A stretch of DNA of 54,783 nt, taken from positions 1 to 54,783 of the IMG/VR virus record IMGVR_UViG_3300023179_003650. One strand, written 5' to 3'. Under the pieces are notes generated by a model. It was not told the origin of the DNA. It was given only the letters and a program-made list of their open reading frames with translations, and searched no databases. Source of the stretch: a virus. Positions 3,017-52,646 of this stretch are shown one piece after another (positions within the stretch are counted from its first letter, which is position 1; every line of letters begins with the position of its first letter). Made by a program: the position numbers and the translations under genes.

Positions 3017-3451
3017 ATGGCACAAAACACATCACCAATCTTTGTACTAACACCTGATATAGGTACAGTAAGGTTAACAGCATCGTCCTCGGCAAGAGAT
3101 GGTTCTGTACAGTCAGTAAGTGGACTTTTCTTAGCAGGCCCATCAGGCTCTAGAGTAGAATCTGTTACATTTACAACAGCAACAACAGGGCAAACCACAG
3201 TAAACTCTGCGATGGTAGGTCGATTATATTACGCACCAGTTGCAGGAAGCGCTCAATCAAATTTAAGACTATTACAAGAGGTGGCAATAGCCGCGGTTAC
3301 GCCATCAGTATCAGCAATTGGTGCGACACAAACAATGTTTTTTCCTGGAGGCTTAATTTTGCCGGCAGGCAGCGCATTATCATGCTCAATATCAGCATAT
3401 GCTGGTAATCAGGATGCTACTGATGTTATAGCTCGAGGGGGTGATTATTAA
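3017..3451 (+). CDS. Small virion-associated protein, Ser/Ala/Gly-rich
   Basis: A 144-residue protein starting 12 bases after the tail fibre stop. The sequence is rich in Ala, Ser, Thr and Gly with beta-type patterning. It has no signal peptide or catalytic motif that I recognise. It contains a central segment LLQEVAIAAVTP and a later segment MFFPGGLILPAGSALS, which look like a compact beta-sandwich with hydrophobic strands. Position between a tail fibre and a propeller protein suggests a tail-fibre accessory or tip component. The stop overlaps the next start by one base (TAATG), so translation is probably coupled. Confidence 0.65.
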   Translation: MAQNTSPIFVLTPDIGTVRLTASSSARDGSVQSVSGLFLAGPSGSRVESVTFTTATTGQTTVNSAMVGRLYYAPVAGSAQSNLRLLQEVAIAAVTPSVSAIGATQTMFFPGGLILPAGSALSCSISAYAGNQDATDVIARGGDY

Positions 3452-4638
3452 TGGCATTATTTAATGATTTGGCATATGGTACACCTGTGGGTGAGCAAGA
3501 TAAACCATCGACAGGATATGGAGCATCGGTAGGATCTCCACAGGAGATGGCTTATGGATTTCCGTCACCTACAAATGCATATGTTGATGTTCTAAATGAG
3601 ATGCGTGCTATTGTGCGAGAAAATTCTGGTAATGCTAATCGATTGCCAACAATTACAAGAATAGGCTCAGGAACAACTACAAATTCATATTTTGGCGGTG
3701 TATTGGCTAGAAATGGTAGAATATATTGTGCACCGTCCACTGCAACCAATGTAATGGAAATTGATCCAATTCGTCGTACATTGACAACCTTTGGAACAGT
3801 TGCAGCCGGCGCTGCTAAGTACGCGGGAGGAGCATTAGGCCAAAATGGTAAAATATATTGTGCGCCTCTACTAGCAACGACAGTGTTAGAAATTGATCCG
3901 GATAGAAGAATAGTCTCTACTTTTGGAAATACTACCGGTTTTGGATATCAAGCAGGAGCCATTACACTGCCAAATGGTACAATTCTATGTGCTCCAGATA
4001 ACGGTGGAGTTAATAATGCAGCACTGTTAATAAATCCAACAAACAGAACAATTAGCAGATTTATATCACCACCAGCCGGAACTCAGTTACCCCAAGTAAT
4101 CGGCATTCAATTACATCCCCTTGGTATAGCAGTATGCGGCCCGCAAACGTCAAACACAATGTTGATTATCGACATAAATAATGGCACATATGTAACTGGT
4201 AGCGGTCCGTTAACACCGACTAACGGAGATTGGAATGCCGGAGCATTAGCCGCAAACGGAAATATTTATTTTGTACCACTTCAGAATCCAACAAGTGTCA
4301 TAGAATTCAATCCATACAGACGCATTGTTACTCAATTTGGAAGTATAACACCGAGCGGTACGCAAAAATATGGAAGCGCGTGTTTATCGCCCGATGGAAA
4401 CATATATGCAGCTGGTAACACCGGTGTAGTTTTAAGAATAAATGTGTATAATAGAACTGTATCAACATTTGGTTCTATTCCGGGAGTAATTCGCGGACTT
4501 ACCATGGCATTAAACGGTAAAATGTATGCAATTCCAACGACAGTTGGAGCTCCAGGGGGTACTTATGAGTTAGATTTTACTTATTTAAAAAAATTCAGTG
4601 ATAACCTAGTGTTATCAACTTACATAAACAACTACTAA
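3451..4638 (+). CDS. Beta-propeller-like putative receptor-binding protein
   Basis: A 395-residue protein. After about 70 N-terminal residues it contains seven repeats of roughly 45 residues with the core NGxIYCAP, followed in most by EIDP or INP plus RxxxTFG. Examples are NGRIYCAP, NGKIYCAP, NGTILCAP, NGNIYFVP and NGKMYAIP. Seven copies fit a seven-bladed propeller of the NHL/kelch kind. No enzyme motif is visible. Location directly after the fibre genes points to a distal adhesin or glycan-binding protein. Family assignment is by repeat pattern only. Confidence 0.65.
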   Translation: MALFNDLAYGTPVGEQDKPSTGYGASVGSPQEMAYGFPSPTNAYVDVLNEMRAIVRENSGNANRLPTITRIGSGTTTNSYFGGVLARNGRIYCAPSTATNVMEIDPIRRTLTTFGTVAAGAAKYAGGALGQNGKIYCAPLLATTVLEIDPDRRIVSTFGNTTGFGYQAGAITLPNGTILCAPDNGGVNNAALLINPTNRTISRFISPPAGTQLPQVIGIQLHPLGIAVCGPQTSNTMLIIDINNGTYVTGSGPLTPTNGDWNAGALAANGNIYFVPLQNPTSVIEFNPYRRIVTQFGSITPSGTQKYGSACLSPDGNIYAAGNTGVVLRINVYNRTVSTFGSIPGVIRGLTMALNGKMYAIPTTVGAPGGTYELDFTYLKKFSDNLVLSTYINNY

Positions 4639-38207: not shown

Positions 38208-39482
38208 ATGAGACAGTTAAAGATTTTTGATTTCGATGATACGTTAGCTAAATCAGAAACGCCCGTAATAATAAAAAAAGCGGACGGGTCTAGTATAACA
38301 CTGACTCCGGGACAATTTGCTACATATAAAATGGAACCGGATGACATTTTAGATTTTACGTATTTTAATAAAATGATATCAAAAGCAACGCCTATTAAAC
38401 ATAATGTAGAGTTGCTTAAAACGTATTTATCAAATCCGGGTAGATATAAAGTTACTATTTTAACTGCTCGTAGATTAGCATTTCCTGTACGATATTGGTT
38501 AAAGAAATTAACGGGACGAGAAGTATATGTAGTAGGAGTAGCGGGATCCGATCCTAAATTAAAAGCTAATTATATAGAAAAAGAAATACGTAAAGGATAT
38601 ACGGATATATTCTTTATGGACGATAGTTTACCTAACGTTCAAGCAATAAAAGATTTAAATAAAAAATACCCTAACGTAAATATAGAGGCTATTGTGGCAG
38701 AAAATATTAACGAACGCTATTTAAGACAAATAATAGCAATTACGGAATCTGTAAATGAAATTGAAAGTAGTAACTTTATTGAAGAAGATGATAATGATGC
38801 TCAAAAAGTATTAGATGATACACCTGATGATGTAGAAGATGCTTTAGCTAAATTCTTAAAAATGTCTCCGGATGAATTAGAAAAACAAGTACTAAAAAAT
38901 CCAGAAGGTAATAAAGAAGTTGAAGAAAGTATAGGTCTGACTTTATTAATGGCTGCTCCATTATTATTAGAATTAGCCGGAAAATTAATTAATAAAATTA
39001 AGACTTCTTATGCATTATCTCCTGACGATCAAAAATATTATGAAGGTTGGAAAGCTCGTAAAAAAGCGGCTAAAGAAGCAAAAGACGATACTAAATTAAA
39101 AGCTTTAGATAAAGAATATAATAACAGATTTGCTTCTAAATTTGGTAAAAATTTAATTGGAATTGGCCATGATTTACATAAAGCATATACCGCACCAATT
39201 GTGCAAGTACTTAAATTAGCAAGTTTCTTGCCTGGTAAATTTGGGGATTGGGCTAAAGATCCTGTAAAGCGTCAAAAAATTGCAAATATAATTTATGCAT
39301 GTACAATGTTCTTTTATGGCGGAGCACATGCTAAACATGGTTTACATGAATTATTAGCACAAAGCGGAGTAGACCCTGCTACATTTGCAGACACAATAGT
39401 TAATGCTGCTAAATCAGGTAAAAGTTTAAAAGATGTAGTTACTATAGGATTAGAAGCTACGAGCGGATTAGAAACTACGTAA
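38208..39482 (+). CDS. HAD-family phosphatase fused to helical/hydrophobic C-terminus
   Basis: A 424-residue protein. The HAD catalytic motif I is FDFDDTLAKS (about 6-15), motif II is the TILTARR segment (about 84-90), and the acidic motif IV is FFMDDSLPN (about 137-145). After about residue 180 an acidic linker leads to a hydrophobic helix (LTLLMAAPLLLELAGKLI) and a long amphipathic helical end. The phosphatase part resembles polynucleotide 3'-phosphatase or nucleotidase domains, which would complement the ligase encoded two genes upstream. The C-terminal part may bind membrane or the prohead. Both links are inferred. Confidence 0.72.
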   Translation: MRQLKIFDFDDTLAKSETPVIIKKADGSSITLTPGQFATYKMEPDDILDFTYFNKMISKATPIKHNVELLKTYLSNPGRYKVTILTARRLAFPVRYWLKKLTGREVYVVGVAGSDPKLKANYIEKEIRKGYTDIFFMDDSLPNVQAIKDLNKKYPNVNIEAIVAENINERYLRQIIAITESVNEIESSNFIEEDDNDAQKVLDDTPDDVEDALAKFLKMSPDELEKQVLKNPEGNKEVEESIGLTLLMAAPLLLELAGKLINKIKTSYALSPDDQKYYEGWKARKKAAKEAKDDTKLKALDKEYNNRFASKFGKNLIGIGHDLHKAYTAPIVQVLKLASFLPGKFGDWAKDPVKRQKIANIIYACTMFFYGGAHAKHGLHELLAQSGVDPATFADTIVNAAKSGKSLKDVVTIGLEATSGLETT

Positions 39483-42927: not shown

Positions 42928-45891
42928 ATGGATACATCATTAACGGCCAGGCTTAAACGATTATTTAGTTCAAATGTAGTAATTCGTAGAGTCGGTAAAC
43001 ATAAATTAAAAGTAATTGATGGCGATCATATGCAGTCGGTTGGCTCTAGAACCAACACTGGATATGTTGATAGATATACTAGATTACATGGCACTCGCCA
43101 ACATACGTATACTACCTATTCTCCGCACCATAATTATTACAGTTCAAAATTAGAATTGTATACAGAATATGAAACAATGGATATGGATTCTATTATTGCA
43201 TCTGCATTAGATATCTATTCTGACGAGACTGTATTAAAAGATGAACGTGGCAGTGTTTTATCAATTAAAAGTGAAGATGAAAATTTACAAAAAATATTAG
43301 AAAATTTATTTTTTGATATTTTAAATATAGATTTTAATTTATGGCCATGGGTTCGTAATTTAGTTAAATACGGAGACTTTTATTTAATATTGGATGTTCA
43401 AGACGATATTGGTATTGTTAACGTAACTCCTTTTTCTGCATACGAAATTATTCGTGAAGAAAATTATGATTTAAATAATCCATATGCAGTTCGATTTAAG
43501 TTAATGAATTCTGGTAATAAAATATTAGAAAATTATGAAGTAGCCCATTTTCGTTTATTAAATGATTCAAACTTTTTACCATATGGTAAATCAATGTTAG
43601 AACCTGCTCGTAAGGTATGGAAGCAGTTAACGTTGATGGAAGATGCGATGATGATACATCGTATTATGAGAGCGCCTGAAAAACGTATTTTTAAAGTAGA
43701 TATAGGAAATATTCCTCCTAATGAAGTTGACGGTTTTATGCAAAAAATTGTCAACCAAATGAAAAAGACTCCTTTTATGGACGATAAAACGGGTGATTAT
43801 AATCTTAAGTTCAATTTAATGAATATGCTCGAAGATTATTATCTACCAGTTCGCGGAGGCCAATCAGGTACGGAAATTGATACATTATCAGGAATGGAAT
43901 TTACCGGTATTGATGATATTGAGTATTTACGTAATAGAATGATGGCTGCTCTTAAAGTGCCTAAATCATTTTTAGGATACGAAGAAGGATTGTGTATATC
44001 ACCGGATACATTAATTCCGTTATTATCGGGAGAAGAAAAAACAGTACACCAAATAATACATGATTACGAAAATGGTATAAAAAATTATGTTTATTCTATA
44101 GACGAAGAAACAAAATTAATCGTACCAGGCGAAATCGAATGGGCCGGATTTACTAGAAAAAATGCAAAAATAGTACGCGTACATTTAGATAACAGAAAAT
44201 ATATTGATTGTACACCGGATCATAATTTCTTAACTCGAGACGGTAAATGGGTCGAAGCACAAGATTTATTAGAAGGTCAGCCATTAATGCCTTTATATAC
44301 AAGAGAATCGACACAGAAGAATATATCAAAATATACGGAAGTTTATCATCCGGGCACTAATAATTGGGAAATGGTTCATAGATTAGTAGCTAATTATTAT
44401 GGTATTAAACAAAAAGGAAAAGTTATTCATCATAAAGATTTAAATAAATGGAATAATACACCAGAAAATTTAGATGGTTCGATGAACTTTTTTGAACATA
44501 GAAAATTTCATCATGAATTAGCTAAGCAAGGCAATCATTCAAAAGCTATGCTAGAATATAGAAATTCTGATCATATTAAAATAAATGCTAGCGTTAACGG
44601 CAAAAAAGGCGGTCTTATATCTGGCAAAAAATTAGCACAATGGGTTAAAGAAAATGGGCCTGTTAATAAAGGCGTACGTACGTTAGATTATATCAAATGT
44701 AAAAATTGTAAAACATTAAATTATAACAAACAATATTGTAATCCGATATGTTGGGGCGAATTTAATAAAGGAAAAACGTATAATTGTAAATTTAATAATA
44801 TATCATACGATCAATTAATTGAAACCGCTAATTATAGCGTATCATTTAAAGATTTAGAAAACAAATTAGATATTACTAGAAATACATTAAATCGAATATT
44901 CGATAAATTTGAATTAGATAGATATAATTTTGTTCAAGAATATATGCCTTTAGCTAAAAATAATAAAGGATTTATAAATAATTTTAAAGGAGAATATGCT
45001 AATCATAAAGTGGTTAGTATAGAATTCTTAAACGAACAAATTGATACATGTGATATAACTGTAACGAAATTTCATAATTTTGCAACTTCAGCCGGGGTTA
45101 TCATACATAACTCGGGTAAAGCTACGTTAGCCGCAGAAGATATTCGTTTTGCACGTACTATTGAAAGAATTCAACGTATTGTATTAAGTGAATTAACGAA
45201 GATTGCAATTATACATTTATATTCTCAAGGATATGAAGGTGCAGATTTATTGAATTTTGAATTAGATATGACTGCCCCGTCAGTTATATATGAACAAGAA
45301 AAAATTGTATTATATAATTCAAAAGTAGATTTAGCAAAGAATATGCAAGATGCAAATTTAATGCCTAGAGAATGGATATATAAAAATATTTTTCAATTCT
45401 CTGACAAAGATATCGAAACTATCTCAGTTCAAATGGCTGAAGATAATAAACAGACATGGAGATTAGAAAAAATTAAATCTGACGGCGAAGATCCAATGAA
45501 TCCTCCGGCTCCGGTTGAAGCACCTGCAGCAGGAAGCGCTTCTACAGGTTCGGCAGCGCCAGGAGCAGAAACTAGTCCCACAGCAACTACGGCAACTGAA
45601 AGTTATACTAGAACAGTTAATGCAGGTAATGGCGATTATAAAATGCCAAAAGATGGATGGCCGGGTGCGGGTCGACCAGAAGAACCAATGAAATATAATT
45701 CACATGAACATCCTAGAGGATATGATCCGTTAGGTAGTCGTGCGCTTAAAAAAGCATATAAGGGCGGAATGAATTATGAGTCGGTAAATGCTTTAACTAA
45801 ACTAATGCCTAAAAAGAAAATAAATAAAGGAATTATAAAAGAAAATACTTCGTTTTTAGACGAAAATAATCTATTATCAGAAGATATTTAA
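42928..45891 (+). CDS. gp20: Portal protein (gp20-like) interrupted by an intein
   Basis: A 987-residue precursor. Exteins of 355 and 259 residues would give a 614-residue portal after splicing (T4 gp20 is 524). Portal landmarks are YDLNNPYAVRFKLMNSGNK, FLPYGKSMLEPARKVWKQL, MMIHRIMRAPEKRIFKVDIG and the junction KSFLGYEEGL / SGKATLAAEDIRFA. The dodecameric portal is the head vertex and DNA channel. The intein sits where it would block assembly unless removed. The C-terminal end is low complexity, then SFLDENNLLSEDI. Confidence 0.92.
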   Translation: MDTSLTARLKRLFSSNVVIRRVGKHKLKVIDGDHMQSVGSRTNTGYVDRYTRLHGTRQHTYTTYSPHHNYYSSKLELYTEYETMDMDSIIASALDIYSDETVLKDERGSVLSIKSEDENLQKILENLFFDILNIDFNLWPWVRNLVKYGDFYLILDVQDDIGIVNVTPFSAYEIIREENYDLNNPYAVRFKLMNSGNKILENYEVAHFRLLNDSNFLPYGKSMLEPARKVWKQLTLMEDAMMIHRIMRAPEKRIFKVDIGNIPPNEVDGFMQKIVNQMKKTPFMDDKTGDYNLKFNLMNMLEDYYLPVRGGQSGTEIDTLSGMEFTGIDDIEYLRNRMMAALKVPKSFLGYEEGLCISPDTLIPLLSGEEKTVHQIIHDYENGIKNYVYSIDEETKLIVPGEIEWAGFTRKNAKIVRVHLDNRKYIDCTPDHNFLTRDGKWVEAQDLLEGQPLMPLYTRESTQKNISKYTEVYHPGTNNWEMVHRLVANYYGIKQKGKVIHHKDLNKWNNTPENLDGSMNFFEHRKFHHELAKQGNHSKAMLEYRNSDHIKINASVNGKKGGLISGKKLAQWVKENGPVNKGVRTLDYIKCKNCKTLNYNKQYCNPICWGEFNKGKTYNCKFNNISYDQLIETANYSVSFKDLENKLDITRNTLNRIFDKFELDRYNFVQEYMPLAKNNKGFINNFKGEYANHKVVSIEFLNEQIDTCDITVTKFHNFATSAGVIIHNSGKATLAAEDIRFARTIERIQRIVLSELTKIAIIHLYSQGYEGADLLNFELDMTAPSVIYEQEKIVLYNSKVDLAKNMQDANLMPREWIYKNIFQFSDKDIETISVQMAEDNKQTWRLEKIKSDGEDPMNPPAPVEAPAAGSASTGSAAPGAETSPTATTATESYTRTVNAGNGDYKMPKDGWPGAGRPEEPMKYNSHEHPRGYDPLGSRALKKAYKGGMNYESVNALTKLMPKKKINKGIIKENTSFLDENNLLSEDI
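43993..45111 (+). mobile_element. Intein with HNH endonuclease domain in the portal gene
   Basis: A 373-codon in-frame insert (codons 356-728). It begins with Cys356 in LCISPDTLIPLLSG (block A). Block B is CTPDHNFLTRDGKW with Thr429 and His432, block F is DTCDITVTKFHNF, and block G ends VIIHN before the +1 Ser729. All residues for standard splicing are present. The middle carries an HNH homing domain, VIHHKDLNKWNNTPENLDG (about 499-517), and a four-Cys cluster, CKNC (591-594) and CNPIC (604-608). The reading is a full, active-looking mobile intein. Confidence 0.93.
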
Positions 45892-47066: not shown

Positions 47067-47606
47067 ATGAGTTATTTAAATAGCATAAAAAAACGTTTAG
47101 ACGAATGCTCGTGTCAAACTAATATACGAGAAGAAGACGAAATCGAAGAAATTTCCGATTCAGGTGCAGTAGCTCCAATAGCTACTCCATATGCTTTTGG
47201 AAATGCTGATGATGACACAATTGAAATGGACGGTTTTAAAAAAGTAACGAAAAAGAAAATAAATACTCAAAGCGAATCTGTATTTGCTAAAATGAGTAAA
47301 GAGCTTTATATTAATGAAGTATCATATAAGGATTATAAAGAATATCCTGGTATGAGTTCTAAAAAGAAAATAAATACCGCTATTCAAGAATGTAATTCTG
47401 CATTATATCAAATAGAAAGATTCCTTAAACAAAATAGAAAGTTGCGTGAAGAAGAAGGAATTGGTAACGATCAATATTGGAAATCAACAGCTATTAAATT
47501 AGTTAAAATGGATGAAAGATTAAAAAATCTTCGTCAAGAAATTAAAAACTTTGGATTAAAAGAAATGTTGATGCGTATACAAGAAGAGGAAAATAATAAC
47601 ATATGA
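47067..47606 (+). CDS. Hypothetical head-region protein
   Basis: A 179-residue protein. An acidic N-terminal part (REEDEIEEISDSGAVAPI) is followed by a basic stretch and a helical C-terminus (YQIERFLKQNRKLREEEG, then LKNLRQEIKNFGLKEMLMRI). The charged, helical layout suits a prohead core or assembly protein. It overlaps the gp21-like gene by 4 bases, so expression is coupled. Confidence 0.58.
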   Translation: MSYLNSIKKRLDECSCQTNIREEDEIEEISDSGAVAPIATPYAFGNADDDTIEMDGFKKVTKKKINTQSESVFAKMSKELYINEVSYKDYKEYPGMSSKKKINTAIQECNSALYQIERFLKQNRKLREEEGIGNDQYWKSTAIKLVKMDERLKNLRQEIKNFGLKEMLMRIQEEENNNI

Positions 47607-48199
47607 AAAATTTACTTATAGATTATATAACGTTTGATGTAACCCCTCAAATGGTTGCTGAGTCGATGGAAAAGAACGGCGGCCGATTAATTGTGTATGG
47701 AGTATTACAACGTGCCGAAGCTAAAAATCAAAACGGCCGCGTTTATCCTCGTCCTATATTAGAGCGTGAAGTAGAAAAATATTTAACTGAAAGCGTTAAA
47801 CAACGTAGAGCGTTAGGGGAACTAGACCACCCAGATTCTTCTATTATAAATTTAAATAACGTATCACATAATATTGTTGATATGGAATGGAAAGGAAATG
47901 ATTTAGTAGGTAAAGTAGAAGTATTAACTACTCCGGCAGGAAATATATTAAGAGAATTATTTAGAGCGGGTATTAAATTAGGTATTAGTTCAAGAGGAAT
48001 GGGAAGTGTTAAACAATTAGATGAACGTACGGTTGAAGTACAAGACGATTTTGAACTTATAGCATTTGACTTCGTTTCTAATCCGTCGACATATGGAGCG
48101 TTTTTACATCCTATGCACGAGTCAGCAGGCCACCGTTTCGTGGATAAATACGAAAATGTAAATAAAATTATTACTGATATATTAACAGGGTTTAATTAA
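47603..48199 (+). CDS. gp21: Prohead core protease, gp21-like
   Basis: A 198-residue serine protease that cuts scaffold and capsid proteins during head maturation. Landmarks are RLIVYGVLQRAEAKNQNGRV near residues 28-47, catalytic His76 in GELDHPDSS, Ser129/130 in KLGISSRGMGSV, and FELIAFDFVSNPS (150-162) with an Asp. These match the T4-type prohead protease. T4 gp21 is 212 residues. The family cuts after Glu with a hydrophobic residue two positions earlier, and such sites occur in the neighbouring proteins. Confidence 0.9.
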   Translation: MKNLLIDYITFDVTPQMVAESMEKNGGRLIVYGVLQRAEAKNQNGRVYPRPILEREVEKYLTESVKQRRALGELDHPDSSIINLNNVSHNIVDMEWKGNDLVGKVEVLTTPAGNILRELFRAGIKLGISSRGMGSVKQLDERTVEVQDDFELIAFDFVSNPSTYGAFLHPMHESAGHRFVDKYENVNKIITDILTGFN

Positions 48200-48558
48200 T
48201 GAAACTTAAAAATCTTTTAAAAGAAGTATCAATATCAGAACCACCTGAATCAGTATTAAAGGGGGCATTGGATATATTTCGTAAACAAACAAATTTACCT
48301 GTCGCTACCCCTACTATTGTAAAAAGTACTCCGTCATTTATATCTTATAAATCTTCATTAGGTAAATTTATTACGGGCGCATTAATGCCATTAGTAGTTG
48401 ATGCCGCTAATTTATTGATAATTGTAACTCCTTCAAAAAATTCAATAGGTGGTTATAAATTTCAATTTTATGCTAAAATACAAACAAAAGACGGTAAAGA
48501 AACCGGAGGGCTTCTTTTAACCGTATTATACGTAAATAATAAATTTAGGGTAATGTAA
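48199..48558 (+). CDS. Small head-region protein with LLKE N-terminus
   Basis: A 119-residue protein coupled to gp21 (TAATG). The first residues KLKNLLKEVS match the candidate head-targeting motif seen in neighbours. The rest is a small beta-rich domain (LLIIVTPSKNSIGGYKFQFY; LLLTVLYVNNKFRVM). It overlaps the next start by one base. It is perhaps an internal head protein. No family is recognised. Confidence 0.55.
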   Translation: MKLKNLLKEVSISEPPESVLKGALDIFRKQTNLPVATPTIVKSTPSFISYKSSLGKFITGALMPLVVDAANLLIIVTPSKNSIGGYKFQFYAKIQTKDGKETGGLLLTVLYVNNKFRVM

Positions 48559-49523
48559 TGCCAGCAAAATCACAAGCACAACAAAAATTAATGGGACTTG
48601 CATTAGCAGTTAAACGTGGTAACGTACCTAAAAGTAAAGTATCAAAGCAAATACAGCAATTGGCTAAATCTATGTCTGAAAAAGACTTGAAAAAGTTTGC
48701 CGGTACAAAGCTTAAAGGATTACCTTCTAAATTAAAAGAAGTTGCGTCTGAATCTGATATGGAACAAATGGATACAGGTTCTTTATTAGGTATGCAACGT
48801 ATTATTGCTTTAACCGATGATCCTAAACAATATGAAGAATTAAATACATTATTAGGTATTGAATTAAGTAAGCGCGGCGTTAATTTAAGAAAGAAAACGG
48901 TTCCTAATAATATGTATTTAGGATATGCAGATAATAAATTAGGCAGTAATTTTCCGCAAAGAGAATCAAAAGGACAAGATATGAAATTAAAATCTATATT
49001 AAACAATATTAATGAAAATACGGAAGAGCAGGTTCAAATTTCCGAAGAACAAAAAAATGCTTTTTTAGAGCATATTAAATCATTTAATGTATTTGGTGAA
49101 GCTATTTATAGAAGCCAAAATATTATTGAAGCTTTAAAAGAAATTAAAAACATTGTTGAAACTGCCCATCATTTAACATTACAAGAAACTGGTGATTGGT
49201 TTGATAAAGTTACTGTAAATCGTCATATGAAACAATTAAAAGAGTCTTATAAGACTTTTGAAAAGACGGCAAACGAAATGTATACATTACAGCAACGTTT
49301 AGAAGCTTGTTATGAAGATATGGGAAATACATTAAATAAGTATTATAATATATCAGAAGATGCAGCTCCTAATTTGCAAGAAAAGGAAAGTGAATATCAA
49401 AAAACATTTTCTAAAGTAATGAAAAAAACGGGTATCGAATCTCCTGCGGATTTAGAATCGGAAAAACAAAAAAAGCAATTTTTTAATCAAGTTGCAAAAT
49501 CATATAAACCAAAAGAAAAATAA
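48558..49523 (+). CDS. DUF3008-like N-terminus joined to helical core-like protein
   Basis: A 321-residue protein of two parts. Residues 1-58 (PAKSQAQQKLMGLALAVKRG; KKFAGTKLKGLPSKL) match the DUF3008 pattern of phage head clusters. Residues 142-321 begin with a fresh LKSILNNINENTEE-type N-terminus and are helical (FNVFGEAIYRSQNIIEALKE). An SD-like AAAGGA (48968-48973) stands 7 bases before Met142 (48981), so a 180-residue second product is possible. It probably belongs to the prohead core. Confidence 0.65.
   Translation: MPAKSQAQQKLMGLALAVKRGNVPKSKVSKQIQQLAKSMSEKDLKKFAGTKLKGLPSKLKEVASESDMEQMDTGSLLGMQRIIALTDDPKQYEELNTLLGIELSKRGVNLRKKTVPNNMYLGYADNKLGSNFPQRESKGQDMKLKSILNNINENTEEQVQISEEQKNAFLEHIKSFNVFGEAIYRSQNIIEALKEIKNIVETAHHLTLQETGDWFDKVTVNRHMKQLKESYKTFEKTANEMYTLQQRLEACYEDMGNTLNKYYNISEDAAPNLQEKESEYQKTFSKVMKKTGIESPADLESEKQKKQFFNQVAKSYKPKEK
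48968..48983 (+). promoter_or_regulatory. Possible internal ribosome binding site and start (Met142)
   Basis: AAAGGA at 48968-48973 is followed 7 bases later by ATG 48981, in frame with the DUF3008 gene. The protein after this ATG begins like other head-region N-termini. Internal initiation is inferred. Confidence 0.4.
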
Positions 49524-49538
49524 TTTAAACAATTAGTT

Positions 49539-49775
49539 ATGAAAAAAAAGAATAAAAAACAAAGAATTTACGAAACAGAATTAGGTGGTTGCCACGTAAT
49601 GGTAGTAGAAAAAGATATTGAATTAGCTCTACGTATATTGAGACAAAAATTCAAATCTTCAGAAAAAGTAGAAATACTACGAGAACGTAAAGAATTCGTT
49701 AAACCGTCAGTTAAACGTAGAAAAGAAATTTTAGCTGCTGTATTTAATGAGCAGGTTAGAAATAGACAAAAATAA
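49539..49775 (+). CDS. rpsU: Ribosomal protein bS21 homologue
   Basis: A 78-residue basic protein. Residues 20-66 follow the bS21 pattern: VVEKDIELALRILRQKFKSS, then VEILRERKEFVKPSVKRRKE, with the diagnostic KPSVKR core and Arg-rich helices. The 18-residue N-terminal extension is unlike cellular bS21. bS21 sits near the mRNA exit and anti-SD region of the 30S subunit, and phage copies can join host ribosomes. Here it is set between head genes and before a terminator, suggesting late expression. Replacement or competition with host bS21 is inferred. Confidence 0.82.
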   Translation: MKKKNKKQRIYETELGGCHVMVVEKDIELALRILRQKFKSSEKVEILRERKEFVKPSVKRRKEILAAVFNEQVRNRQK

Positions 49776-49783
49776 TATATAGT

Positions 49784-49812
49784 AAAAACTTCCAATCAAA
49801 AGGAAGTTTTTT
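49784..49812 (+). terminator. Intrinsic terminator after bS21
   Basis: A ten-base-pair stem AAAAACTTCC / GGAAGTTTTT with an 8-base loop, ending in a T-run. It separates the bS21 unit from scaffold and capsid. Confidence 0.85.
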
Positions 49813-49837: not shown

Positions 49838-49937
49838 TATGCCAAATATTTTATTTTATATATAAAATCGGCTTAAAAAAATTAACCCTTATTATAGTTT
49901 TAATAACTATATTTCCTGATTAAAATAGAGGGATTCA

Positions 49938-50831
49938 ATGAAAGACTTATTAAAAGAAGCAATCGCAGATGCAAAAGCAGTACGCGAAACAGCATTGGCA
50001 AATGCTAAACTTGCTTTAGAAGAAGCTTTTGCGCCTCGCATTCAATCAATGATTTCTAGCCATTTACAGCAAGAAGCTGAAGAAGAAATGATGGACGAAG
50101 AAGATGATGATATGACTGCAATGGGGGACAGTGAAGCTCCTGCTGAAGAAGAAATGCCAGCAGAAGAACCAACAGAAGAGCCAGCACCAGCGCCTGCTCC
50201 GTCTGACGATGAAATGACAGAAGATGATGACATGGATTTAGAAGAAATTATCCGTGAATTAGAATCTAGCGAAGACTCTGAAGATACAATGGACGAAGGT
50301 GATGATGAAATGATGGACGAAGCTGATGACGAAGAAATGACAGAAGCTGACGACGAAATGATGGACGAAGGTGAAGATGAAGAAATCGACATCCAAGAAG
50401 TAATCCGTGCATTACGTGAAGAAGATGAAGAACCGGTTAAAGAAGCAGAAGATGAAGAAAAGAAAGAAATGGAAGAAAACTTACAAGAAGCTTATAAAGT
50501 AATTAAGTTTTTACGTAGCAAGATTAATGAAGTTAATTTGCTAAATGCAAAACTTCTTTATTCTAACAAGTTATTCAGAACATATTCTTTAAATGAAAAT
50601 CAAAAGCTTAAGGTTATTGAAAACTTTGACAGAGCTCAAAATCTTCGTGAAGTAAAACTTCTTTTTACTGCTTTAGCAGAAAACTTTACTGGTAATAGAA
50701 ATAAAAAAGCAATTAAAGAAAGCTTTGCATCTAAACCGGTAGGATCTACGAAACCTGCAGAAAAAACAGTATTAAATGAAGGCGACGTTTTAGCTAACCG
50801 TTTCAAAAAATTAGCTGGTTTAATTAAATAA
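49938..50831 (+). CDS. gp22: Prohead core scaffold protein, gp22-like
   Basis: A 297-residue, extremely acidic protein with an SD (GAGGGA). It starts KDLLKEAIADAKAVRETALA, then carries a long Asp/Glu/Met/Ala/Pro repeat region (about 48-180), and ends in a helical part (YKVIKFLRSKINEVNLLNAK; FRTYSLNENQKLKVIENFDR). The order scaffold then capsid, after gp21, is the T4 head order. It forms the prohead core and is cut by gp21. Antisense frames across the acidic repeat are artefacts of composition. Confidence 0.82.
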   Translation: MKDLLKEAIADAKAVRETALANAKLALEEAFAPRIQSMISSHLQQEAEEEMMDEEDDDMTAMGDSEAPAEEEMPAEEPTEEPAPAPAPSDDEMTEDDDMDLEEIIRELESSEDSEDTMDEGDDEMMDEADDEEMTEADDEMMDEGEDEEIDIQEVIRALREEDEEPVKEAEDEEKKEMEENLQEAYKVIKFLRSKINEVNLLNAKLLYSNKLFRTYSLNENQKLKVIENFDRAQNLREVKLLFTALAENFTGNRNKKAIKESFASKPVGSTKPAEKTVLNEGDVLANRFKKLAGLIK

Positions 50832-50844
50832 TAAAATAACAAAA

Positions 50845-50850
50845 AAGGAG
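50845..50850 (+). promoter_or_regulatory. Strong Shine-Dalgarno of the capsid gene
   Basis: AAGGAG, 5 bases before the ATG at 50856. This is the best SD in the window and is placed before what is normally the most abundant phage protein. Confidence 0.85.
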
Positions 50851-50855
50851 ATAAA

Positions 50856-52601
50856 ATGTCTTTAAAAAATATCTTAGGCGAAAGTAACGGAATGATCCGT
50901 CGCCAAATGGAAGAGACAAAAGGTCTTGTCAACAAATGGGAAAAGACAGGTCTTTTGGAAGGTCTTGATAAGGATTATGAGCGTCATGGAACGGCTATCC
51001 TATTAGAGAACCAAGCAAAACAATTAATTTCAGAAGCTTCTGCAACTGCAGGTGCTGATAACGCAGAACAATGGGCAGGCGTTGCTTTACCATTAGTACG
51101 TCGTATCTTTGCTGAAATCGCTGCTAAAGAATTCGTTTCTGTACAGCCAATGAATTTACCTTCAGGTCTTGTATTCTATCTTGATTTCAAGTATGGTACA
51201 GCTCAACCTGGATTCAATACTTCATCAACTCGTAACTCACGTTCTTCATTCCAAAACAATAGCGTATTTGGTATTACAGAAACTACAGGTGATGCAAATG
51301 GCGGTCTTTATGGTGCTGGTCGTTTCGGTTATTCATTAAACGAAGCAGTATCTACGTTAACTGTAACAGGTTCGACTGGAACTATTTCTTCTACTAACGC
51401 TAATGCTTATACATTAGTTGGAACAGGTGGAGATGATGATGTTTGGAACTATGATTCTAAATTCTATGCTGCATATAGCGCATCTATCGCATTAAATCAC
51501 TTTAAGAAAATCGTTATGTCTGCAACAGGGTTTGCAACTAACGCAGATCTTAATGGTGTACGTGCATTTAAGATTTCAGGATCTTCTACAGGTGTTGTAG
51601 ATACATATTTCCCGCAATTTACGAAATATGATGCATCTGCAAACACTATTACATTCGTTGTATCTGGATCAATTGGTGGTACTACTTCTACATTTACATT
51701 AGCTTCTGCAGCTACTATGTATGCTGTATATCAAAAGCAGCCAGGTGGTGTAGATGCATCAAATGGCATTACTGCAGGTCAAGGTGGTTCAAATTACCGT
51801 GGCGATTTTGAAGATTCAAATCCTAGCTCAACTAGTGATATTAATATCCCAGAAATTAACGTTGAAATGCGTTCTGAAGCAATTGTTGCTAAGACACGTA
51901 AGTTAAAGGCAGTTTGGACACCTGAATTTGCTCAAGACTTGAATGCATATCACTCAATTGACGCTGAAGCTGAATTAACTTCAATGTTATCTGAGTATGT
52001 ATCGCAAGAAATTGATCTTGAAATTCTTGATATGTTGATCCAAAATGCAGTAACTACGGATAACTGGTCAGCACGCGTCGGATATGAATATGATTTAGCT
52101 TCAGATCAATTCGTTACTGCTGGTAACTCTAATGCATTAGCTTATAACCAAGGTACTTGGTATTCAACTTTAGGAACTAAGATTCAGAAAGTAAGTAATA
52201 AAATTCATCAAAAGACAATGCGTGGTGGTGCTAACTTCCTTGTAACGTCTCCTGATGTTTGTACTATTTTAGAATCTATTCCTGGATATGCAGCTTCTAC
52301 AGACGGTGACAAAATGCAATTTGCAATGGGCGTAACGAAAGTTGGTGCTATTGCTAACCGCTTCACAGTATACAAGAACCCATATATGACTGAAAACTTA
52401 ATCTTATTAGGATATCGTGGTACTCAGTTCCTTGAAACAGGCGCTGTATATGCTCCGTATATTCCATTGATTATGACTCCGCTTGTATATGATCCGACTA
52501 ACTTCACTCCACGTAAGGGTGTAATGACTCGCTACGCTAAGAAGATGGTTCGTCCGGAATTCTATGGTTTAGTAAAAGTGCATGGTTTAAATTTAGTTTA
52601 A
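50856..52601 (+). CDS. gp23: Major capsid protein (gp23-like)
   Basis: A 581-residue protein. The N-terminus SLKNILGESNGMIRRQMEET leads to AILLENQAKQLISE, where gp21 would cut after Glu60 (I-S-E), leaving ASATAGADNAEQWAGVALPL as the mature start. VRRIFAEIAAKEFVSVQPMN and MNLPSGLVFYLDFKYG are classic gp23 features, and the C-terminus has FTVYKNPYMTENLILLGYRG and KKMVRPEFYGLVKVHGLNL. T4 gp23 is 521 residues. Codons contain more C/G-ending forms (AAC, ATC, CGT) than neighbours, typical of high expression. Confidence 0.95.
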   Translation: MSLKNILGESNGMIRRQMEETKGLVNKWEKTGLLEGLDKDYERHGTAILLENQAKQLISEASATAGADNAEQWAGVALPLVRRIFAEIAAKEFVSVQPMNLPSGLVFYLDFKYGTAQPGFNTSSTRNSRSSFQNNSVFGITETTGDANGGLYGAGRFGYSLNEAVSTLTVTGSTGTISSTNANAYTLVGTGGDDDVWNYDSKFYAAYSASIALNHFKKIVMSATGFATNADLNGVRAFKISGSSTGVVDTYFPQFTKYDASANTITFVVSGSIGGTTSTFTLASAATMYAVYQKQPGGVDASNGITAGQGGSNYRGDFEDSNPSSTSDINIPEINVEMRSEAIVAKTRKLKAVWTPEFAQDLNAYHSIDAEAELTSMLSEYVSQEIDLEILDMLIQNAVTTDNWSARVGYEYDLASDQFVTAGNSNALAYNQGTWYSTLGTKIQKVSNKIHQKTMRGGANFLVTSPDVCTILESIPGYAASTDGDKMQFAMGVTKVGAIANRFTVYKNPYMTENLILLGYRGTQFLETGAVYAPYIPLIMTPLVYDPTNFTPRKGVMTRYAKKMVRPEFYGLVKVHGLNLV

Positions 52602-52617
52602 TCTAAATATAACTAAT

Positions 52618-52646
52618 AAAAGGGGGTAGAAATATCCCCTTTTTTT
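52618..52646 (+). terminator. Intrinsic terminator after the capsid gene
   Basis: An eight-base-pair stem AAAAGGGG / CCCCTTTT with a 10-base loop, then a T-run to 52646. It ends the scaffold-capsid unit. Confidence 0.85.

Follow-up and report, generated by a model that had tools for sequence, protein, structure and literature searches.

A phage bS21 with an N-terminal extension in a T4-like head module, and its association with Shine-Dalgarno leaders on structural genes

No ribosomal protein is encoded by phages more often than bS21, which raises the question of why they carry it. Phage bS21 proteins (PMC6375957), N-terminal extensions of these proteins (PMC7162821) and their place near head genes (PMC9723584) have already been published. 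The bS21 of the Pelagibacter phage HTVC008M enters E. coli ribosomes (Mizuno et al. 2019, PMC6375957), and the S21 proteins of huge phages possess a basic N-terminal extension, for which a role in favouring the phage's own mRNAs has been proposed (Al-Shayeb et al. 2020, PMC7162821). Chen et al. 2022 (PMC9723584) describe phages with inferred Bacteroidota hosts, whose bS21 gene lies near those of TerL, portal, protease and capsid and is transcribed late, and whose protein has an aromatic residue at position 54. The Microcystis phage Mel-JY01 (PP395634) encodes an RpsU with an N-terminal extension, in the slot between the protease and scaffold-capsid genes. On the cellular side, Bacteroidota ribosomes ordinarily disregard SD signals: bS21, bS18 and bS6 of Flavobacterium johnsoniae hold the 3' tail of 16S rRNA and block Shine-Dalgarno (SD) pairing, Tyr54 of bS21 stacking on A1534 and hiding the anti-SD, while rpsU is autoregulated through a very strong SD (PMC9976891). 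Strong SDs are used more when F. johnsoniae bS21 carries Y54A or is truncated at its C-terminus; upon loss of bS21 or with Y54A, the gain is confined to very strong SDs, a weak SD faring better on wild-type ribosomes (PMC9976891).

The window, i.e. the whole stretch of DNA analyzed here, is a 54,783-base IMG/VR fragment of a T4-like phage. Its genes follow the order TerL, portal with an HNH-bearing insert, protease, DUF3008 gene, bS21, scaffold, capsid and PhoH. This is the T4-like head-module order (TerL, gp20 portal, gp21 protease, scaffold, gp23 capsid), as assigned by PHROG matches, except for the scaffold, which was identified from its syntenic position and its homology to Mel-JY01. The bS21 gene stands within the TerL-portal-protease-capsid region, on the strand of the head genes, and starts 15 bases past the stop of the DUF3008 gene. 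A first-pass annotation of this DNA had placed it between the DUF3008 gene and the scaffold and capsid genes, and the PF11450 and PHROG matches together with synteny bear this out. The features of this region are the following.

47603-48199, + strand: prohead protease (gp21-like; phrog_207, E 2e-56), with SD AGAGGA, duplex -5.9
48558-49523, + strand: DUF3008-domain gene upstream of bS21 (PF11450)
49539-49775, + strand: bS21 gene, an exact open reading frame with a product of 78 aa (basis: PF01165 above cut-off, PDB phmmer, SD energy)
49539-49592, + strand: N-terminal extension, residues 1-18 (MKKKNKKQRIYETELGGC), preceding the Pfam core
49701-49718, + strand: KPSVKR motif of bS21 (translation, alignment)
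49743-49745, + strand: Phe69 codon, aligned through the 7jil chain with F. johnsoniae Tyr54
49784-49811, + strand: terminator-like hairpin with a U run directly 3' of bS21 (-13.7 kcal/mol, z -5.6; reported by the scan on the - strand only)
49928-49932, + strand: SD-like GAGGG before the scaffold gene, duplex -6.3
49938-50831, + strand: prohead scaffold gene (gp22-like), assigned through its homologue at the corresponding position in Mel-JY01
50845-50850, + strand: SD AAGGAG before the major capsid gene, duplex -8.9 kcal/mol
50856-52601, + strand: major capsid protein (gp23-like; phrog_138, E 2.5e-70)

A second hairpin follows the capsid gene (52618-52643), and with hairpins at both places bS21 may close one transcription unit, scaffold and capsid forming the next. 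SDs are sparse in the window: they are borne by the capsid, scaffold and protease genes and a few others, and none was seen on TerL, portal, the two recognisable replication genes or most other window genes. The AAGGAG element agrees with the initial description of the capsid gene as SD-bearing. Three further genes deserve mention. The portal gene (42928-45891) seems to contain an intein-like insert with an HNH endonuclease match at about residues 360-740. The SD-bearing gene at 38208-39482 encodes a polynucleotide-kinase-like N-terminal domain. Lastly, a DUF6923-like gene (3451-4638, + strand, 395 aa) is preceded by the extended SD GAGGGGGTGA at 3435-3450 (duplex -15 kcal/mol), which equals host rpsU genes in strength; since it lies across the 3' end of the preceding gene, it may have arisen by chance from RGGDY codons.

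Pfam PF01165 (Ribosomal_S21) matches residues 19-67 of the product significantly (32 bits vs a cut-off of 27, E 1e-7), and the NCBIfam equivalog TIGR00030 ends marginally below its own cut-off (28.9 vs 28.95). Translation and alignment concur with this match, so that the 78-residue protein with a bS21 core and KPSVKR, as first annotated, stands. Its best solved relatives by sequence (phmmer against the PDB) are the bS21 chains of 9i5v and 7jil, the latter being the F. johnsoniae ribosome. AlphaFold, from a 39-row alignment, predicts the bS21 helices at residues 27-40, 43-49 and 56-77 with a pLDDT of 80; the N-terminus is uncertain (55-62). Foldseek comparison of this model with the PDB reports mostly bS21 or mitochondrial/plastid bS21; the E-values are weak, at 0.2 or above, which is to be expected of a protein so small and helical. 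The nearest phage copy, in the syntenic locus L002, is 96% identical. A protein search of the phage collection with the bS21 query returned no match at E 0.01, probably owing to the short query; a profile search of the collection recovered the copies of Mel-JY01 and of the uncultured huge phage LR756508.

The Pfam core starts at residue 19, and the segment before it aligns with the NKKxKxxx[ST]IVPG-type extensions of head-module relatives, many of which display a basic stretch, an IVPG or similar turn, and then V-x-V. Helix 1 is preceded by 26 residues in the window protein, against a median of 24 in head-module phages and of 11 in both hosts and Chen-type phage copies. The 18-residue extension, at first called unusual, is therefore real but ordinary for its lineage. 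A start at Met21 rather than Met1 is ruled out, since L009 and L028 lack that methionine and yet keep the extension. The N-terminal helix of bS21 covers the anti-SD, where the mRNA would bind (PMC9723584), so an extension there could affect release of the tail or contact with the mRNA. As to position 54, tyrosine is present in all 80 Bacteroidota host rpsU loci, while the 109 head-module copies have Y or F in 32 cases and a non-aromatic residue in 77. The window protein is aromatic at this site (Phe69); simple loss of masking is thus not evident in it, and the extension would have to matter. Loss of Tyr54 is also insufficient as a common cause, since Y or F combined with an extension likewise accompanies SDs, and since nearly all short forms with a non-aromatic residue come from the L228 clade, a clade devoid of Bacteroidota promoter signal. 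In this sister clade, bS21 has Leu, Val or Arg at the Tyr54 position and a mostly short N-terminus.

T4 encodes core proteins between its protease and scaffold genes, and the [LI]-x-E cleavage motif is known from T4. The window bS21 occupies the same slot, which raises the possibility that it serves in the virion or outside the ribosome, packaged with the head core or bound to phage RNA, and packaging was suggested by Chen et al. 2022 (PMC9723584). However, alignment of the relatives' extensions revealed no conserved [LI]-x-E site, so a capsid-targeting or protease-processed N-terminus was dropped as the main idea, and the ribosome-facing core of the protein is conserved; we consider such a role very improbable.

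To relate bS21 to SD usage, genes were taken as the longest ATG open reading frames and SD strength as the energy of the duplex formed with a generic anti-SD tail; the cut-off, -5 kcal/mol or below, was picked during the analysis, and a motif criterion yields the same contrast. Among 187 distinct capsid loci, a non-random sample gathered by searches with five related capsid queries, 109 have bS21, in every case on the same strand as the capsid gene, which it precedes by 1.0-3.9 kb. The capsid gene carries an SD in 99/109 loci with bS21 vs 6/78 without, and the median fraction of neighbouring genes with an SD is 0.50 vs 0.08. A FastTree capsid tree offers nine independent contrasts on supported branches, of which about six agree with the association and essentially none goes against it (sign test about 0.03; several analyses having been tried, by locus, gene class, residue 54 and extension, p-values are to be read as guides throughout). 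Mel-JY01, LR756508 and many IMG/VR contigs share bS21 in this slot; no bS21 was found anywhere in Flavobacterium phage immuto or Rhodothermus phage RM378. In L181-L183, the loci closest to the window phage after L002, the slot holds a different gene of 254-267 aa and the capsid gene has no SD, and their whole records contain no full bS21 match. Exceptions occur both ways: L524 and L650 are SD-bearing capsid loci with no bS21 within their 48-54 kb fragments, and L491 and L582 have bS21 without SDs; the SDs of G028 are weak.

Part of this raw association can be traced to a shift of host, given that the L228 clade, whose host seems to belong to another phylum, has bS21 and SDs on both structural and replication genes but no Bacteroidota motif. 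On these grounds this clade (L228, L517-L595), together with three doubtful loci, was left out of a reduced set, an exclusion decided after seeing the data; capsid SDs then number 56/63 with bS21 vs 5/76 without, the neighbour SD fraction is 0.47 vs 0.08, and seven contrasts remain, of which about five agree and none disagrees (sign test about 0.06). The trend persists without the L228 clade, but few independent events lie behind it.

The SDs that accompany bS21 are unevenly distributed over the genomes. Genes were sorted into classes according to their homologues among the annotated genes of immuto and Mel-JY01, either structural or replication/metabolism, and with this reference list, set after seeing the data, the extended-bS21 phages bear SDs on 80/152 structural vs 11/82 replication genes (p 2e-9). 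Their clade mates devoid of bS21, one of which is a Flavobacterium isolate, have 4/70 and 1/40, respectively, and long records without bS21 (157-183 kb) are almost SD-free throughout. A generic preference of T4-like phages for SDs on late genes was not seen in T4, cyanophage S-CAM1 and HTVC008M, which together give 10/20 structural and 17/30 replication genes; the late bias is therefore not a general T4-like habit. Neither class bears SDs in the Chen-type phage G007, and in Mel-JY01-type phages the early genes are SD-bearing too. That this bS21 goes together with SD leaders, chiefly those of structural genes, is well supported. This association could reflect host matching, if bS21 phages infected SD-reading lineages of Bacteroidota or allied phyla, such that bS21 and SDs both track the host and bS21 is not the cause. 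The SDs on both classes in Mel-JY01-type phages and in the L228 clade would fit, but the early genes of the extended-bS21 phages are mostly SD-less when their late genes are not, which would be odd in an SD-reading host, and the association survives exclusion of the side clade. The promoters of the same genomes, Bacteroidota in type, also argue against host matching, which we hold to be unlikely though worth keeping in mind.

TAnnTTTG is a mark of Bacteroidota promoters, and the genomes were searched for TTG-N19-21-TAnnTTTR. Immuto, which has a known Flavobacterium host and served as positive control, contains 23 copies for 0.7 expected, and enrichment is also seen in G030 (25/1.3), G034 (8/0.7), G028 (8/0.9), G029 (6/1.1), G026 (5/0.6) and Mel-JY01 (20/1.1); the motif is absent in T4, S-CAM1, HTVC008M and RM378, and the L228 clade gives no such signal. 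When the spacing was scanned, Mel-JY01, G030 and G018 showed a peak at exactly 20, and this motif also emerged from a broader search for dyads. The window has two copies for 0.2 expected, a small count. Judged from these promoter motifs, the clade likely infects Bacteroidota, and the window phage does so with less certainty. The listed host of Mel-JY01 (L335-L338) is a cyanobacterium; with promoters of Bacteroidota type, its true host may be a Bacteroidota member of the culture.

The host rpsU genes of the 80 Bacteroidota loci have a median SD of -16.1 kcal/mol, whereas none of the phage bS21 copies has one at or below -8 kcal/mol (0/78 and 0/107). The window gene is devoid of any upstream SD, let alone a strong autoregulatory one (duplex about +2 kcal/mol). 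The phage copy would thus be free of host feedback and could be produced even with host rpsU shut off. This would suit a function in supply or competition only, in which bS21 keeps ribosomes replete or displaces host bS21 with SD use unchanged, the SDs serving mRNA stability or translational coupling. An SD-independent role must exist in the Chen-type phages at least, which combine a bS21 bearing a host-like Tyr54 with almost no SDs. However, this explanation accounts neither for the joint change of bS21 gain or loss and SD leaders nor for the concentration of SDs on structural genes, and we find it improbable.

The best reading of these data, which we put at about an even chance, is that this bS21 re-tunes ribosomes late in infection in favour of SD-led late phage mRNAs. 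We infer each step of the mechanism, namely late synthesis, incorporation into the 30S subunit, release of the anti-SD and preferential translation. A bS21 paralogue would have been retained in the head module of a T4-like phage clade infecting Bacteroidota. Its SD-less message would be translatable by the unmodified host ribosome and escape the autoregulation that acts on host rpsU through a strong SD. The protein would replace host bS21 on the 30S platform, where its extension, helped in many relatives by a non-aromatic residue at the Tyr54 position, might make the hidden anti-SD usable; late in infection, SD-led virion genes of the phage would then have the advantage over host messages that lack an SD. 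In its most specific form, the extended bS21 is a late translation switch that turns SD-blind Bacteroidota ribosomes into SD-reading ones, virion genes being marked by SDs and picked over SD-less host messages. We advance this form tentatively, with somewhat less than even confidence: the phage SDs are moderate (-5 to -9), whereas the F. johnsoniae data favour very strong SDs, and since loss of bS21 or Y54A does not help a weak SD there, the phage protein would need to do more than open the pocket. The first-pass suggestion that phage bS21 may alter the use of SD-bearing mRNAs such as that of the capsid has strong comparative support, but Phe69 retains the aromatic masking residue. Together, a distinct form of bS21 and SDs on late genes, in likely hosts that hide their anti-SD by means of bS21, offer a testable answer to why phages carry this protein, namely that the virus makes specialised ribosomes.

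A literature search that covered few subscription papers and no preprints did not find the coupling of bS21 with SD leaders, its concentration on structural genes or the missing host-type SD of phage bS21, and the novelty of these points is therefore provisional. Compared with F. johnsoniae rpsU, the phage gene belongs to the same family and its product would face the same anti-SD pocket, but the host gene has an extended SD and the phage gene none. The huge-phage S21 proteins of Al-Shayeb et al. share a basic extension with the window protein; in that work, however, SD usage was tied to S1-like proteins and not to S21 (PMC7162821). In the huge phage LR756508, bS21 occupies the slot seen in the window, but the protein has no N-terminal extension and SDs are few. 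HTVC008M resembles the window in encoding bS21, but there the gene lies at 91 kb, outside the head module, with the capsid gene at 74 kb, and SDs occur on both gene classes. Mel-JY01 shares slot and extension, and differs by a lysine at position 54, by SDs on early and late genes and by the cyanobacterium listed as its host. As for the phages of Chen et al. 2022, the available part of the text (PMC9723584) mentions neither an extension nor a survey of phage SDs. Their bS21 is encoded on the opposite strand and comprises 61-64 aa with a host-like Tyr54 and a short N-terminus, in genomes with almost no SDs. In contrast, the window bS21 is encoded on the same strand as the head genes, as are all 109 copies of our sample, and combines an N-terminal extension with SD-bearing late genes.
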